From the NCBI RefSeq assembly GCF_902498825.1, contig NZ_LR701459.1, forward strand, positions 372,001-436,000: a DNA stretch of 64,000 nt, in the 5' to 3' direction. The first letter of the stretch is position 1; every line of letters starts with the position of its first letter. This stretch comes from Rhizobium sp. EC-SD404 (GTDB taxonomy: Bacteria > Pseudomonadota > Alphaproteobacteria > Rhizobiales > Rhizobiaceae). This document shows, piece after piece, positions 18,546-26,374 of this stretch. Below the pieces are notes generated by a model, which worked only from the letters and a program-made list of their open reading frames with translations, was not told the origin of the DNA and did not search any database. The translations under genes and the position numbers were made by a program.

Positions 18546-19238
18546 ATGCGCATTCTGCTGGTCGAAGACAACCGCGATCTCGGCGAAGCGGTGGAGGGAC
18601 GTCTCAAGCGCTCCGGCCATTCGGTCGACTGGGTGCGGGACGGGGAAGCGGCGCTCGCTTTTGCCCGCGACGCGTCGTTCGACGCCATCGTTCTCGATCT
18701 CATGCTGCCGGAGCGAGACGGAATTTCGGTGATCTCGGCGCTGAGGAGCGGCGGCGACGATACGCCGGTGCTCGTCGTGACGGCACGCTCGGAAATCGAC
18801 GACCGCGTCAGCCTTCTCGACATGGGTGCCGACGACTATCTCGTCAAACCATTCGACCTGCGTGAGCTGGAAGCGCGGTTGCGCGCACTCATGCGTCGGC
18901 CGGCGGGACATTCCAGCAGCCGAATGGTGCTCGGCGATTTGGTGATGGAGACCGCGGCGCACAGCGTAAGCGTCGCGGGCGTGCCGGTCGAGATCGGCCG
19001 ACGAGAGTTTCGACTGCTGGAGATTCTGATCTCGCGCGCCGGCCAGGTGGTCGCGAAGGAGCGACTGATGCAGCAGCTGTTTTCGATCGACGAGGATGTC
19101 GCGGTCAATGCGCTTGAGCTCTATGTGTCGCGCCTGCGCCGCAAGATCGAGAATTCCGGTGTGTCGATCCTGACCGTGCGTGGCATCGGCTACCTTGCAA
19201 GGGCCGATGCAGAGGTTCGGCCCGCCGATGCGCGCTGA
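18546..19238 (+). CDS. Response regulator, OmpR family (TctD type)
   Basis: 230 residues. Receiver domain with acidic pair Glu7-Asp8, phospho-acceptor Asp51 (VLDLMLPERDG), Thr79 and Lys101 (DDYLVKPFD). A winged-helix DNA-binding domain follows (RREFRLLEILI...VVAKERLMQQL...YVSRLRRKI). It overlaps the histidine kinase gene by 11 bp. The cluster response regulator-kinase-tctCBA is the known layout for control of tripartite tricarboxylate transporters, so it likely activates tctC expression; direct repeats suited to an OmpR-type dimer lie upstream of tctC. Confidence 0.88.
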   Translation: MRILLVEDNRDLGEAVEGRLKRSGHSVDWVRDGEAALAFARDASFDAIVLDLMLPERDGISVISALRSGGDDTPVLVVTARSEIDDRVSLLDMGADDYLVKPFDLRELEARLRALMRRPAGHSSSRMVLGDLVMETAAHSVSVAGVPVEIGRREFRLLEILISRAGQVVAKERLMQQLFSIDEDVAVNALELYVSRLRRKIENSGVSILTVRGIGYLARADAEVRPADAR

Positions 19239-21705
19239 CAGCTTCTCGATCCGCCGACGGATCACCGCCCTTGCAGCAATCCTTCTCGTCGCCGCAGCTC
19301 TGATCCTGCTCGTCTTCATCAGGGATTATGCCGAGCGCGCTTCCGATCGCGCCTTTGACCGGTTGCTCGCAGCCTCGGCGCTCACCATCGCCGGCGCGGT
19401 GCAGATCGAGGACGGCGACGTCACGGTGGAGCTTCCCTATGCGTCCTTTGCAATGGTTTCGGGCGACGACCGCGTCTTTTATTCGGTGCGTGCGCCGGAT
19501 GGGTCGCTGGTCACCGGCTATGACGATCTTGCTGCCGATATGCCGCTTGCGGAAACGCTCGATGCGGAGTTCGACGATGTGCGTTACGGCGGCGAGGTGG
19601 TGCGGGTCGCAAGTGTCGGCCGCCTGATCTCGACGGCGGACGGGACCGGCTGGGTGACGATCCGGGTCGCCGAAACGCAAGGCGCGCGCGAAACGCTGTC
19701 GCGCGAGATCGTCAACAATGCGCTGGTGCCGCTGCTGGTCCTGACCCTGCTGGCTGCATGGCTCGTCTGGTATCTCATCCGGCGCACCTTCGCACCGCTG
19801 CTCACGCTGGAGCGCGAATTGCGCGCCCGCTCGCCCGACGATCTCTCGCCGGTGGACATTCCCGTACCGGTGGAAGTGCGCCACGTGGTCGGCGCGCTGA
19901 ACGAGTTCATGGCACGGCTGAACCAGTCGATGGTGCGCCTCAGCGAGCTGGTGGCGGAGGCGGCCCACCAGGTGCGAACGCCGCTGGCGTCGCTCCGCGC
20001 CCAAGCCGAGGTGGCCATGGACGAGACCGATCCGGATGCCATGCGTGCCCGGGTCGAGCGGATCCATCAGGGCGCCGTGCAGTCGAGCCAGCTCGTCACC
20101 CAATTGCTGATGGATGCGACCGTATCGCATCGCCTGGACCTCAGGGACGTGCAGGTGACAGTGATCGGTGCGCTGGTCAACGAGGTGGCGCAGCGGCTCG
20201 ATCCGGACCAATTGATGCGCATCGGCGTCGAGATGAAACCCGACGTCGCGGACATCGGTTTTCCCGCCGATCGCGTGGTGATGCGCGAGATGCTGAAGAA
20301 CGTCGTCGACAACGCGCTCGCCTATTCGCAGGGCGATGTGACCATCCGCGTGGAACGCGCAAGAGAAGAGAACGGCGACGTGCTGAAACTGTCCGTCCTC
20401 GATAAGGGGCCCGGTATTCCCGATGCGGAGAAGGACACTGTCGTGGAGCGTTTTCGTCGGGGTGCGAGCGCCGGAAATCAGCCGGGTTCGGGGCTGGGGT
20501 TGGCGATCGTGCGCCGCGTGGCCGAGGCCCATCGCGGGCGTCTGACGCTGAGGGACCGCGCCGGGGGCGGGCTCGTTGCCGAAATCTGCCTGCCGCTTTC
20601 CGGGCGCGGAAGCGATCGCCGTGAAGGTCGCGCCGGACGAGGGGCCATCCCTGCGGCGATCGCGCTTCTGGTCGGCGCTTGCCTTCTTCCGTCGCACGAA
20701 GCGGCCGCCGAGCCTCTGGTCTTTCCCGCTAGAGCCGCGGAAAAGGCATCGCTGACGATCGTGGGGACGACGGATACGCGACTCTTTACGCTGTTCGTGG
20801 AGGCCTTTCAGGAGCGCTACCCAAACGTCACCGTCCGCTACGACGAGACCGACACGCTTTTGATGTACGAGAACTATCTCGCCGGGCAACTCGATCCTCC
20901 GGCAGATCTGATGATCAGCTCATCGTCCGATCTCCAGGTCAAGCTCGCCAATGACGGGCACGCGTCGCGGCATGATTCGGCCGTTTCGTCGATGCCGGAT
21001 TGGGCCACGTGGCGCAACGAGGTCTTCGGCTTTACCTTCGAACCGGCGGTGATCGTCTACAATCCTGACTTGATCTCTCAGGACGAAGCGCCACGCACGC
21101 ATCTGGCCCTTGCGGAGTTTCTGGAAAGCAATATCGGTCGCCTGACGGGAAAGGTCGCAACCTACGACATCGCAACGAGCGGGGTTGGTTATCTGCTCGC
21201 GGTTCAGGACCAGCTGATCTCATCGCAGTTCTGGCGCCTTGCTTCGGCGTTCGGCCGGACGGGCGCCGTGCTCAGCGGGTCGAGCCCCGATATTCTCGAC
21301 CGGGTCGATGCCGGCGAACTGGCGATCGCTTACAACGTGCTGGGCTCCTACGCCTTCGCGCGGCAGGCGGAGGGGGCGAATATCCAAATCATCGTGCCCG
21401 ACGATTACGTGCTGGTGCTGACTCGAAGCGCGGTGATCGCACGCGATGCGCCGAATGCGGAAACAGCGAGGCTCTTTCTCGACTTCCTCCTCTCCGACGC
21501 GGGCCAAGCGGTGGCAGCGGGACCGACGGCGCTCGGTGCCGTCAGGGACGGCGTGCGTGGGCTCTGGACCGCGGCGAACATCACCGAGATGGGGCGAGGC
21601 GCGGTGCAGCCGATTGCGCTCGGCCCGGCGCTCATGGTCGCGCTGGACCAGCAGCGGCGTGCCCGCTTTCTGGAAACCTGGCGCGGGATCGTCTCGCCTC
21701 CCTGA
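19228..21705 (+). CDS. Histidine kinase fused to a periplasmic solute-binding protein
   Basis: 825 residues in one frame. N-terminal TctE-like kinase: TM1 about 11-32, periplasmic sensor (2CSK_N type) 33-161, TM2 162-183, HAMP-like linker, H-box His247 (AEAAHQVRTPL), N-box Asn362 (NVVDNALAYS), G1 DKGPGIP and G2 GSGLGLAIV, ending about 456. An Arg-rich stretch (462-471), a hydrophobic segment (473-488) and an AAAEP signal-peptidase-like site (492-496) follow, then a complete Fe3+-type/family-1 solute-binding domain (506-825). Between about 19.9 kb of kinase code and the binding domain there is no in-frame ATG, GTG or TTG after about 20518 that would start the second domain with its signal segment, so it reads as a true fusion. 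The start ATG at 19228 overlaps the regulator gene. Confidence 0.85.
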   Translation: MRADSFSIRRRITALAAILLVAAALILLVFIRDYAERASDRAFDRLLAASALTIAGAVQIEDGDVTVELPYASFAMVSGDDRVFYSVRAPDGSLVTGYDDLAADMPLAETLDAEFDDVRYGGEVVRVASVGRLISTADGTGWVTIRVAETQGARETLSREIVNNALVPLLVLTLLAAWLVWYLIRRTFAPLLTLERELRARSPDDLSPVDIPVPVEVRHVVGALNEFMARLNQSMVRLSELVAEAAHQVRTPLASLRAQAEVAMDETDPDAMRARVERIHQGAVQSSQLVTQLLMDATVSHRLDLRDVQVTVIGALVNEVAQRLDPDQLMRIGVEMKPDVADIGFPADRVVMREMLKNVVDNALAYSQGDVTIRVERAREENGDVLKLSVLDKGPGIPDAEKDTVVERFRRGASAGNQPGSGLGLAIVRRVAEAHRGRLTLRDRAGGGLVAEICLPLSGRGSDRREGRAGRGAIPAAIALLVGACLLPSHEAAAEPLVFPARAAEKASLTIVGTTDTRLFTLFVEAFQERYPNVTVRYDETDTLLMYENYLAGQLDPPADLMISSSSDLQVKLANDGHASRHDSAVSSMPDWATWRNEVFGFTFEPAVIVYNPDLISQDEAPRTHLALAEFLESNIGRLTGKVATYDIATSGVGYLLAVQDQLISSQFWRLASAFGRTGAVLSGSSPDILDRVDAGELAIAYNVLGSYAFARQAEGANIQIIVPDDYVLVLTRSAVIARDAPNAETARLFLDFLLSDAGQAVAAGPTALGAVRDGVRGLWTAANITEMGRGAVQPIALGPALMVALDQQRRARFLETWRGIVSPP

Positions 21706-21751
21706 CGATTTGGCTTGAGGACCGGCCTGAGCTTCGACCCGAGAAATGGCT

Positions 21752-21769
21752 GACAGGTGGACGACAGGT
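21752..21769 (+). promoter_or_regulatory. Tandem GACAGGT repeats upstream of tctC
   Basis: GACAGGT occurs at 21752-21758 and 21763-21769, an 11-bp period that places both on one DNA face, as expected for a dimer of an OmpR-type regulator. They lie about 160 bp before tctC, downstream of the kinase gene, and are the best candidate site for the cognate regulator. No experiment is implied. Confidence 0.4.
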
Positions 21770-21927: not shown

Positions 21928-22881
21928 TTGAAGAAAACCATTTTCGCTGCTGCTTTCGCGGCACTGCTCACCAGCACATCCGCTTTCGCGCAGATGGACG
22001 AACTGAAGATCATGGCGCCTGCGGCGCCCGGCGGCGGCTGGGACCAAACGGCCCGCTCGATCCAGTCGGTCATGCAGGCTGAGGGCCTCGCCTCCAACAT
22101 CCAGGTCGAGAATGTCGCCGGCGCCGGCGGCACGATCGGTCTCCAGCAGTTCGTCAACCGCTCCGCAGGCGACCCGACGGCAACGATCGTCGGCGGCTAC
22201 GTCATGGTTGGCGCCATCATCGCCAATGCCGCTCCGGTCACGCTCGAAGAAGTCACGCCGATCGCCCGCCTCACGGGTGAATATGTCGTGGTCATAGCAC
22301 CGGCCGATAGCGAAATCGACAATGCCGAAGACCTCGCCGAAGCCATGCAGGCCGACCCCGGCTCCGTCACTTGGGGCGGTGGCTCCGCCGGCGGCGTCGA
22401 CCACATCGCGGCCGGTCTCTTCGCCCAGGCAGCCGATGTCGACCCGCGCGCCTTGAATTACATCCCGTTCTCCGGTGGCGGCGAAGCGCTTGCGGCCATT
22501 CTCGGCGGCCAGGTCACGGTTGGCATTTCCGGCTACAGCGAGTTCGCATCGCAGATCGAAGCCGGCGAAGTGAAGGTGATCGCGATCACCGCTCCGGAGC
22601 GTCAGGACTATGTCGACGCGCCGACTTTTGCCGAACAGGGCTTCGACCTCGATGTCCAGAACTGGCGCATGATCGCAGCCGCTCCGGACATTTCGGATGA
22701 AGAGCGTCAGGCACTGACGGATACAATCCGGACGATGTCGGAATCCGAAGCCTGGGCCACCGAACTCGAAACGCGCGGCTGGGTGAACACCTATCTCGAT
22801 GGCGAAGAGTTCCAGACCTACCTGAACCAGGAGATCGAGGCGACCACCGCCATCCTCTCCGACCTCGGCATCAGCCAGTAA
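21928..22881 (+). CDS. tctC: Tripartite tricarboxylate transporter substrate-binding protein
   Basis: 317 residues. Cleavable signal peptide (KKTIFAAAFAALLTSTSAFA), then the TctC fold with APAAPGGGWDQTAR, VENVAGAGGTIG and GGSAGGVDH, the family's substrate-loop signatures. It binds a carboxylate in the periplasm and delivers it to TctAB. The start is an unusual TTG at 21928, supported by GGGAGG at 21917-21922 with 5-bp spacing and by the signal peptide beginning exactly there. The frame runs on upstream to 21820 but without a signal-peptide-like start. Confidence 0.9.
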   Translation: MKKTIFAAAFAALLTSTSAFAQMDELKIMAPAAPGGGWDQTARSIQSVMQAEGLASNIQVENVAGAGGTIGLQQFVNRSAGDPTATIVGGYVMVGAIIANAAPVTLEEVTPIARLTGEYVVVIAPADSEIDNAEDLAEAMQADPGSVTWGGGSAGGVDHIAAGLFAQAADVDPRALNYIPFSGGGEALAAILGGQVTVGISGYSEFASQIEAGEVKVIAITAPERQDYVDAPTFAEQGFDLDVQNWRMIAAAPDISDEERQALTDTIRTMSESEAWATELETRGWVNTYLDGEEFQTYLNQEIEATTAILSDLGISQ

Positions 22882-22882
22882 G

Positions 22883-23413
22883 ATGGCGACGCACGAACAG
22901 GGCGGGGCCGGCACACGCCGGCCCGACGAGGCGGCCCGTCGCAAGTTCGACCTCGGTGGATTGGCGATCGCAATCGGGCTGTTTCTGTTCTCGGCCCTGA
23001 TCGCGCTCGATGCGTCCTCCTATCCCGAACGGCGCAGTTATGCGCAGATCGGGCCGGAGATATTTCCTTACATCGTTGCTATCGGCATCGCCGTTTTCGG
23101 CGCCCTTACGTTCGTGATGGCGCGGCGCGGCGACTTTCCCGACCGGGAAGCCTTGAATTGGGTTCCGGTGATCTGGATCATCGGGGCACTCGCCGGCATG
23201 ACCGCGCTGCTCTATGCGGGCGCCGGTTTCATCATCGCGTCGGGGGTGCTGTTCGGTGGTGCCGCGCGCGGTTTCGGCCGCAAGCCGGTGATCCTGACGG
23301 TGTTCGTCGGGGTGGTGATCTCCGCGCTGCTCTACGTGCTCTTCCGCCAGGGCCTTGGCCTGTCGCTGCCGGCCGGGCTGATCGAGCCGTATCTCAACGC
23401 GCTGTTTCGTTAG
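22883..23413 (+). CDS. tctB: Tripartite tricarboxylate transporter small membrane subunit
   Basis: 176 residues with four hydrophobic segments (about 29-46, 66-82, 98-125, 133-163), the TctB pattern of two plus two helices. It starts one base after the tctC stop, so translation is probably coupled. TctB pairs with TctA to form the sodium- or proton-driven carrier. Sequence conservation in this subunit is low, so the name rests on topology and on its place between tctC and tctA. Confidence 0.88.
   Translation: MATHEQGGAGTRRPDEAARRKFDLGGLAIAIGLFLFSALIALDASSYPERRSYAQIGPEIFPYIVAIGIAVFGALTFVMARRGDFPDREALNWVPVIWIIGALAGMTALLYAGAGFIIASGVLFGGAARGFGRKPVILTVFVGVVISALLYVLFRQGLGLSLPAGLIEPYLNALFR

Positions 23414-23517: not shown

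Positions 23518-26374
<2,857 letters not shown>

Follow-up and report, generated by a model that had tools for sequence, protein, structure and literature searches.

The window analysed here is a 64,000-nucleotide stretch of the Rhizobium sp. EC-SD404 genome (contig NZ_LR701459.1, positions 372,001 to 436,000 of the forward strand). On its plus strand, positions 19228-21705 hold one uninterrupted reading frame, 825 codons long, that starts with ATG, ends with TGA and joins a TctE-type sensor histidine kinase to a periplasmic solute-binding protein (SBP). What can be read from the sequence itself is the fusion, its conservation, a signal-peptide-like junction between the two halves, the gene order and an operator-like repeat. 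On these grounds we consider it probable that the locus encodes a three-component system, TctD/TctE plus SBP, made as a polyprotein that would be processed by signal peptidase, with citrate-like ligands as the probable stimulus.

The fused gene and its relatives

The frame is composed of the following parts:

19228..20598, plus strand: kinase part, residues 1-457, with a first transmembrane segment (TM1), periplasmic 2CSK_N domain, second transmembrane segment (TM2), HisKA (His247) and HATPase_c (Pfam, motifs)
20599..20709, plus strand: junction, residues 458-494, with an Arg-rich stretch, a hydrophobic core (residues 473-488, positions 20644-20691) and a c-region with terminal AAA
20709/20710: predicted signal peptidase I cut, after AAA (residue 494)
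20710..21702, plus strand: SBP part, residues 495-825, 331 residues when mature if cut (SBP_bac_11/8; PDB homologues)

In the 825-residue protein Pfam places 2CSK_N at residues 20-161, HisKA at 238-296 and HATPase_c at 348-458, followed by matches to SBP_bac_11/8/1/6 between about residues 519 and 777. The kinase boxes, recognized by motifs of general knowledge, are AAHQVRTPL (245-253), NVVDNA (358-363), DKGPGIP (392-398) and GSGLGL (420-425). Hydrophobic segments lie at residues 12-31, 164-184 and 473-488, and the sequence AAA, then EP, occupies residues 492-496. A PDB search with the 2CSK_N domain gave no matches at E<=1. An earlier note on this DNA had described one frame holding a TctE-like kinase and an SBP, with no start codon between the halves. 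The fusion is indeed real, its domains being found by Pfam, and in-frame ATG, GTG or TTG is absent between codons 431 and 512; we also agree that the gene design is unusual.

In both congeners the same frame is found, collinear, uninterrupted and 95% identical. Among the three congeneric species dN/dS is 0.05-0.06 for the kinase, 0.06-0.07 for the SBP and 0.14-0.19 for the junction. This collinearity, together with the low dN/dS, indicates that the reading frame is more than a product of chance.

A protein search, in which residues 470-825 only were scored, on the 8000 most word-sharing candidates of 0.55-1.75 times the length of the whole protein, gave 543 matches. The best 120 of these 543 are all kinase-SBP fusions by their Pfam lists, 113 of them with at least 780 residues and 7 shorter; with 112 from the loci described below, the pool of fused proteins of at least 780 residues reaches 225. 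Members among the matches listed come from Devosia, Pelagibacterium, Aureimonas, Mesorhizobium, Pararhizobium haloflavum, Labrys, Alsobacter, Yoonia, Paracoccus, Allopusillimonas, Castellaniella and Thorsellia, and their database names are of the type 'sensor histidine kinase', 'TctE' or 'extracellular solute-binding protein'. In the genus Devosia (g39), 60 of 75 genomes have a match at E<=1e-80 and 15 have none at that threshold; the 60 comprise 53 whole fusions, 2 permuted splits, 2 frameshifted genes, 2 apparently cut by contig ends and 1 distant kinase only. Two loci, L199 (genome G1478) and L200 (G1512), carry a fused gene broken by frameshifts, through either error or decay. In the family to which the window belongs, the fusion has a sporadic distribution: of 394 genomes sampled, 12 carry it at >=58% identity, the window's genome among them.

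The homologue search had been proposed in the earlier note, for which relatives bearing two separate genes and an extra or missing base at the junction would have refuted the fusion. Only part of this holds. Distant relatives do have two genes, which often overlap in different frames, but the fusion is retained in both congeners and in most of the near relatives searched; a frameshift is thereby excluded, and the fusion must be inherited. We thus give practically no credence to the idea that a frameshift or assembly error joined two genes: the two-gene state of distant relatives would be in its favour, but it is refuted by two congeners and many independent assemblies that show the same fusion.

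How the fusion may have arisen can be judged from 189 loci (some genomes having been fetched twice), in which the two parts are fused (114), adjacent in the same direction but separate (43), divergent (14) or otherwise arranged (18). In 33 of the 43 adjacent pairs the candidate SBP start overlaps the kinase stop by 4 bases (ATGA-type), earlier SBP starts being also possible in a few of them; the SBP lies in another frame than the kinase in 40 of the 43, and in the kinase frame behind a stop in the other 3. Most likely, the fusion arose from such an overlapped gene pair via loss of the stop and the start. On a kinase tree of 66 rows (28 fused and 38 unfused representatives; a quick tree with SH-aLRT support only) the fusion label needs 5 changes, of which 3 are forced by starred branches, in a count that does not separate gain from loss. 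In the main fused clade, which has support 99, 21 of 21 representatives are fused. We read the pattern as several independent fusions. A search with L060, a member of another fused clade, gave 159 matches, and the 120 listed (P0122-P0241) are, where genera are named, mostly from Rhodobacteraceae, and also from Roseibium and Pelagibacterium. The loci L077 and L078, considered as an unfused/fused sister pair, were rejected as such, since they fall in different regions of the kinase tree.

The junction between kinase and binding protein

The third hydrophobic segment should place the binding domain in the periplasm, as the earlier note proposed and as the N-in/C-out orientation supports. Once there, the domain could stay tethered or be cut off, and the evidence favours cutting. 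The case for it is built on position-specific columns at -3 and -1. Junctions of the main clade were anchored on a downstream Y-P-A motif, which is independent of the assumed cut site; of the 53 representatives (under 80% identity), 48 could be scored and 5 lacked the anchor. Position -1 is Ala in 77% (entropy 1.36) and position -3 is Ala in 60% and Val in 8% (entropy 2.02), while position -2 is variable with no strong preference (entropy 3.26); a Pro peak is seen at -6, and basic residues precede the core. In the second fusion clade, anchored on an S-A-T-D motif in 63 of 69 representatives, Ala makes up 67% at -1 and 70% at -3, and -2 is again variable (Arg 25/Gln 21). Two separate fusion clades share a predicted internal signal peptide whose -3/-1 site is conserved. 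The motif [AV]xA is found after the third segment in 38 of 48 representatives and after TM1, which is also N-in/C-out, in 3 of 48, with 12 of 60 representatives unscorable by the motif rules. The window's genome has two matches to the signal peptidase I family.

A second line of evidence comes from two genomes in which the fusion has been undone. In G1518 (L159/L197, the metagenome-assembled genome of Devosia sp. RYN_485; split locus at L159 5268-8450) and G1524 (L198), whose loci are 75% identical, the gene order is response regulator, SBP, kinase. The SBP has its own candidate ATG and a signal peptide, and the kinase lacks the third segment; in G1518 the SBP and kinase genes overlap as ATGA. 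Both genomes are nested in the fused clade (within sets of 12 and 14 rows, with supports 99 and 98). A tree that is made to group all 22 fused rows to their exclusion is 44.6 log units worse (approximately unbiased test, p=0.00019, on a quick tree with a long-branch warning on one outgroup row). Because the split version is nested in the fused clade, the fusion and the third segment were dispensable in these genomes, which is consistent with a protein that is normally cut.

Several observations weigh against cutting. Shuffled Ala-rich windows give [AV]xA in 63% of cases, which makes the presence of the motif alone a weak sign; as a test of cutting it was therefore replaced by the position-anchored columns. 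Segment length was dropped as a test, since the median number of non-polar residues in the third segment, 16.5, is lower than in TM1 (20) yet similar to that in TM2 (17). The window's own junction carries a lipobox-like VGAC. A lipoprotein reading of it was rejected, as its Cys is Trp in both congeners, and a lipobox-like motif is seen in just 5 of 59 fused representatives, among which no conserved lipobox was found. The G1524 SBP may be a lipoprotein, as a lipobox-like LVAC precedes its ATA site; the G1518 SBP has no such motif. Among unfused relatives, 2 of 43 SBPs look lipid-anchored (L050 and L051), and the separate SBPs of L008 and L010 seem to be N-terminally membrane-anchored, so that membrane-held SBPs do exist in the wider family. 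Finally, the split genomes speak for dispensability where they occur, and a tether may still operate elsewhere. The TM2-like length and the LVAC of G1524 slightly lower our trust in cutting.

These points bear on the alternative in which the third segment stays as an anchor. A ligand-binding domain in the periplasm would then follow the catalytic domain of the kinase, and the catalytic domain would be held at the membrane from both ends. The linker from the kinase end to the third segment, with a median of 13 residues (scored in 109 of 114 fused loci), would keep the catalytic domain near the membrane, and the recurrence of the fusion suggests some gain from linkage. The lipoprotein-like or anchor-like SBPs in some unfused or split relatives, and a segment core of about TM2 length by the same measure, fit such an anchor as well. 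However, the alanines at -3 and -1 are conserved in two separate clades, and the kinases of the nested split genomes lack the third segment; we regard a permanent tether as unlikely. Of the two outcomes offered in the earlier note, it is cutting, named there as the alternative, that gains from the signal-peptidase signature in two fusion clades and from the two nested split genomes, and the tether is the less supported.

Cutting might also be incomplete, with tethered and free SBP coexisting in a ratio that is part of the regulation. Cleavage of internal signals can be slow, and about a quarter of the main-clade representatives have a residue other than Ala at the anchored -1 position (R, G, N, D, I and others), partly through register shifts; but most anchored members bear a canonical site, and we hold such a mixture to be quite improbable. 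There is some chance, though a small one, that the fusion is uncut or partly cut and that a ligand-binding protein beyond the third transmembrane segment pulls directly on the catalytic domain. That an internal start codon gives rise to some or all of the SBP, the long frame being incidental, is highly improbable: some in-frame ATG, GTG or TTG precedes the hydrophobic core in 72 of the 114 fused loci, but 42 have none, including the window's genome and both congeners, the frame stays uninterrupted throughout the clade, and the unfused pairs use another frame (40 of 43) or an in-frame stop (3).

Gene neighbourhood, ligand and the TGACAG repeat

The genes and the site around the fusion in the window are:

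18546..19238, plus strand: OmpR-family response regulator, TctD-like (Response_reg and Trans_reg_C; its start is probably the ATG before ILLVEDN)
21751..21767, plus strand: tandem 11-bp repeat TGACAGGTGGACGACAG, the proposed response-regulator site before tctC, from conservation
21928..22881, plus strand: TctC, the transporter's own binding protein (PF03401); its start is probably a TTG, to judge from a GGGAGG kept in four aligned species
22883..23413, plus strand: TctB (PF07331)
23518..25047, plus strand: TctA (PF01970)

The 3' end of the response regulator gene overlaps the kinase ATG by 11 nt, and a response regulator lies directly 5' of the fusion in all 111 fused loci whose upstream flank reaches 800 bases or more (3 further fused loci have too short a flank for scoring). 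With an OmpR-family regulator and a kinase bearing 2CSK_N, HisKA and HATPase_c, the pair belongs to the TctD/TctE type of two-component systems. The SBP, fused or adjacent, is distinct from the kinase sensor domain, as in a three-component system.

TctC belongs to a different family from the fused SBP, and as the linked transporter has its own binding protein, the fused SBP is most likely a dedicated sensor. In four Alcaligenaceae (L143, L145, L146 and L147) and in Thorsellia (L153) an ATP-binding cassette (ABC) importer takes the place of tctCBA 3' of the fusion. These importers encode their own SBP, two permease parts and an ATPase (the L147 copy is cut by a contig end); in L143 and L153, where it was measured, the importer SBP is 29-32% identical to the fused one.

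The closest solved relatives of the SBP part are PDB 3c9h (E 5.9e-63) and 7f6e (E 7.6e-42), both full-length homologues, named by their depositors an ABC transporter substrate-binding protein (3c9h) and a periplasmic iron-binding protein (7f6e-7f6u). In 3c9h and the 7f6 series the protein is separate, in contrast to the kinase-fused SBP described here. Sites altered in five 7f6 variant chains (7f6p and 7f6u were left aside) align to T514, S565, S651, S686 and Y708; the last four are invariant in 16 aligned fusions, and T514 varies. We infer that the altered sites are ligand contacts. The protein of the 7f6 series is, we assume, a metal-citrate binder. Given the tctCBA genes next door, the ligand is likely to be citrate-like.

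The repeat has the form TGACAGG-N4-TGACAG, with 11-bp spacing, and either half is sometimes CGACAG. It precedes tctC in every fused locus that has this gene close by on the same strand (49 of 49) and in every one that has it convergent (25 of 25), in the latter case shifting together with the promoter of the transporter; the 74 scored tctC-linked stretches comprise 65 distinct ones. Over the same 74, the backward-read pattern occurs in none, the opposite strand gives 0 and shuffles give a mean of 0.01. The repeat is also present in L106, where tctC lies 3 kb downstream, and just before the importer in 5 of 5 ABC-linked fused loci. The split genome G1518 has kept it before tctC. Of three loci in other fusion clades whose tctC is divergent and lies upstream of the response regulator, L059 carries an exact copy. 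Within 1.5 kb flanks it is found in 20 of the 43 adjacent unfused loci and in 1 of the 14 divergent ones. No downstream repeat is present in 35 other fused loci, most of which have short flanks or no tctC there. We propose that the repeat is a candidate operator by which the partner regulator would control tctCBA.

Some findings do not sit easily with this proposal. L049 and L060, the other two of the three loci with a divergent tctC in other fusion clades, have no exact copy. Four repeat sites occur in the window's genome, against two for the backward-read control, and two of the four precede a PHO4 phosphate transporter. The repeat core equals a reversed Pho-box half-site, and the two PHO4-side sites resemble Pho boxes; that another regulator, PhoB, could use the tctC site too is a live alternative. 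Linkage to the transporter is itself incomplete. In the 73 named fused loci whose downstream flank reaches 3.3 kb or more, TctA lies 3' of the fusion on the same strand in 33, is convergent in 25 and is found in neither form in 15, and tctA is absent from the downstream flanks of ten fused loci. The loci without tctA are L105, L107, L108, L109, L112, L113, L115 and L118 of Devosia and L150 and L152 of Alsobacter; in L107 and L112 no transporter families were found among the eight neighbouring open reading frames scanned.

Proposed mechanism and comparison with known systems

In the polyprotein scheme that we favour, TM1 and TM2 of the kinase would insert in the membrane and the kinase body would fold in the cytosol, while the third hydrophobic segment would serve as an internal signal peptide and direct export of the SBP. 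Signal peptidase I would cut after AAA (residue 494) and free a periplasmic SBP of 331 residues, so that SBP and kinase would be present in equal number; the kinase would keep a C-terminal membrane stub unless this is degraded. The ligand-loaded SBP would then bind the periplasmic 2CSK_N domain, the activated kinase would phosphorylate the response regulator, and the regulator would bind TGACAG-N5-TGACAG and turn tctCBA on.

If cut, the protein would represent a bacterial signalling pair made as a polyprotein, with receptor and ligand-catcher fixed at 1:1, which has seemingly evolved several times and been undone in one lineage. If it is truly uncut, it would represent a new sensor-kinase topology, probably reached more than once. 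In either case, the fused, overlapping and naturally split versions form a ready system for studying how a binding protein communicates with a kinase and what causes gene fusion, and a widespread, generically named sensor family gains a testable operator and a likely ligand class.

Three-component systems of SBP, kinase and regulator are known, e.g. XylFII-LytS and TorT-TorS, in which the SBP and the kinase are products of separate genes. EvgS and BvgS are kinases with N-terminal SBP-like sensor domains, and thus, as in the protein described here, combine a binding-protein fold and a kinase in one polypeptide. In EvgS and BvgS, however, the SBP domain is N-terminal and is itself the sensor, whereas here it is C-terminal (residues 495-825, the kinase occupying 1-457) and lies behind a third segment. 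As regards processing, FbcH of Bradyrhizobium, in which cytochromes b and c1 are made as one precursor cut by signal peptidase, likewise consists of an integral membrane protein, an internal cleavable signal and a periplasmic domain, but it serves a respiratory complex, not a signalling pair.

The nearest functional parallel is found in Bordetella pertussis, where, according to two reports, citrate-loaded BctC acts on the kinase BctE (PMC5812351, PMC9602780). In BctCBA/BctDE, as in other TctDE-tctCBA loci, a TctE-type kinase and its regulator lie beside a tripartite tricarboxylate transporter, as here, and the signalling of a ligand-loaded periplasmic binding protein through the kinase periplasmic domain is what we propose for the fusion. 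In the Bct system the signalling SBP is the transporter's TctC-family protein and has its own gene, whereas in the fusion this role would fall to a second SBP, from another family and joined to the kinase. The AgtS and AruS neighbourhoods also contain an SBP beside a kinase thought to be activated by it, but as separate genes, and in that report an interaction between PA4985 and AruS was not observed (PMC11113362).

Signalling from an SBP to a kinase is already known from BctC and BctE. Among the literature matches listed, from a scope outside which most subscription journals lie, no title or opening lines described a kinase that carries an SBP at its C-terminus, or a kinase polyprotein processed by signal peptidase. 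Three Azospirillum kinases with an SBP_bac_1 domain are tabulated in another report (PMC4618731), and this table is possibly an earlier sighting of such a fusion.

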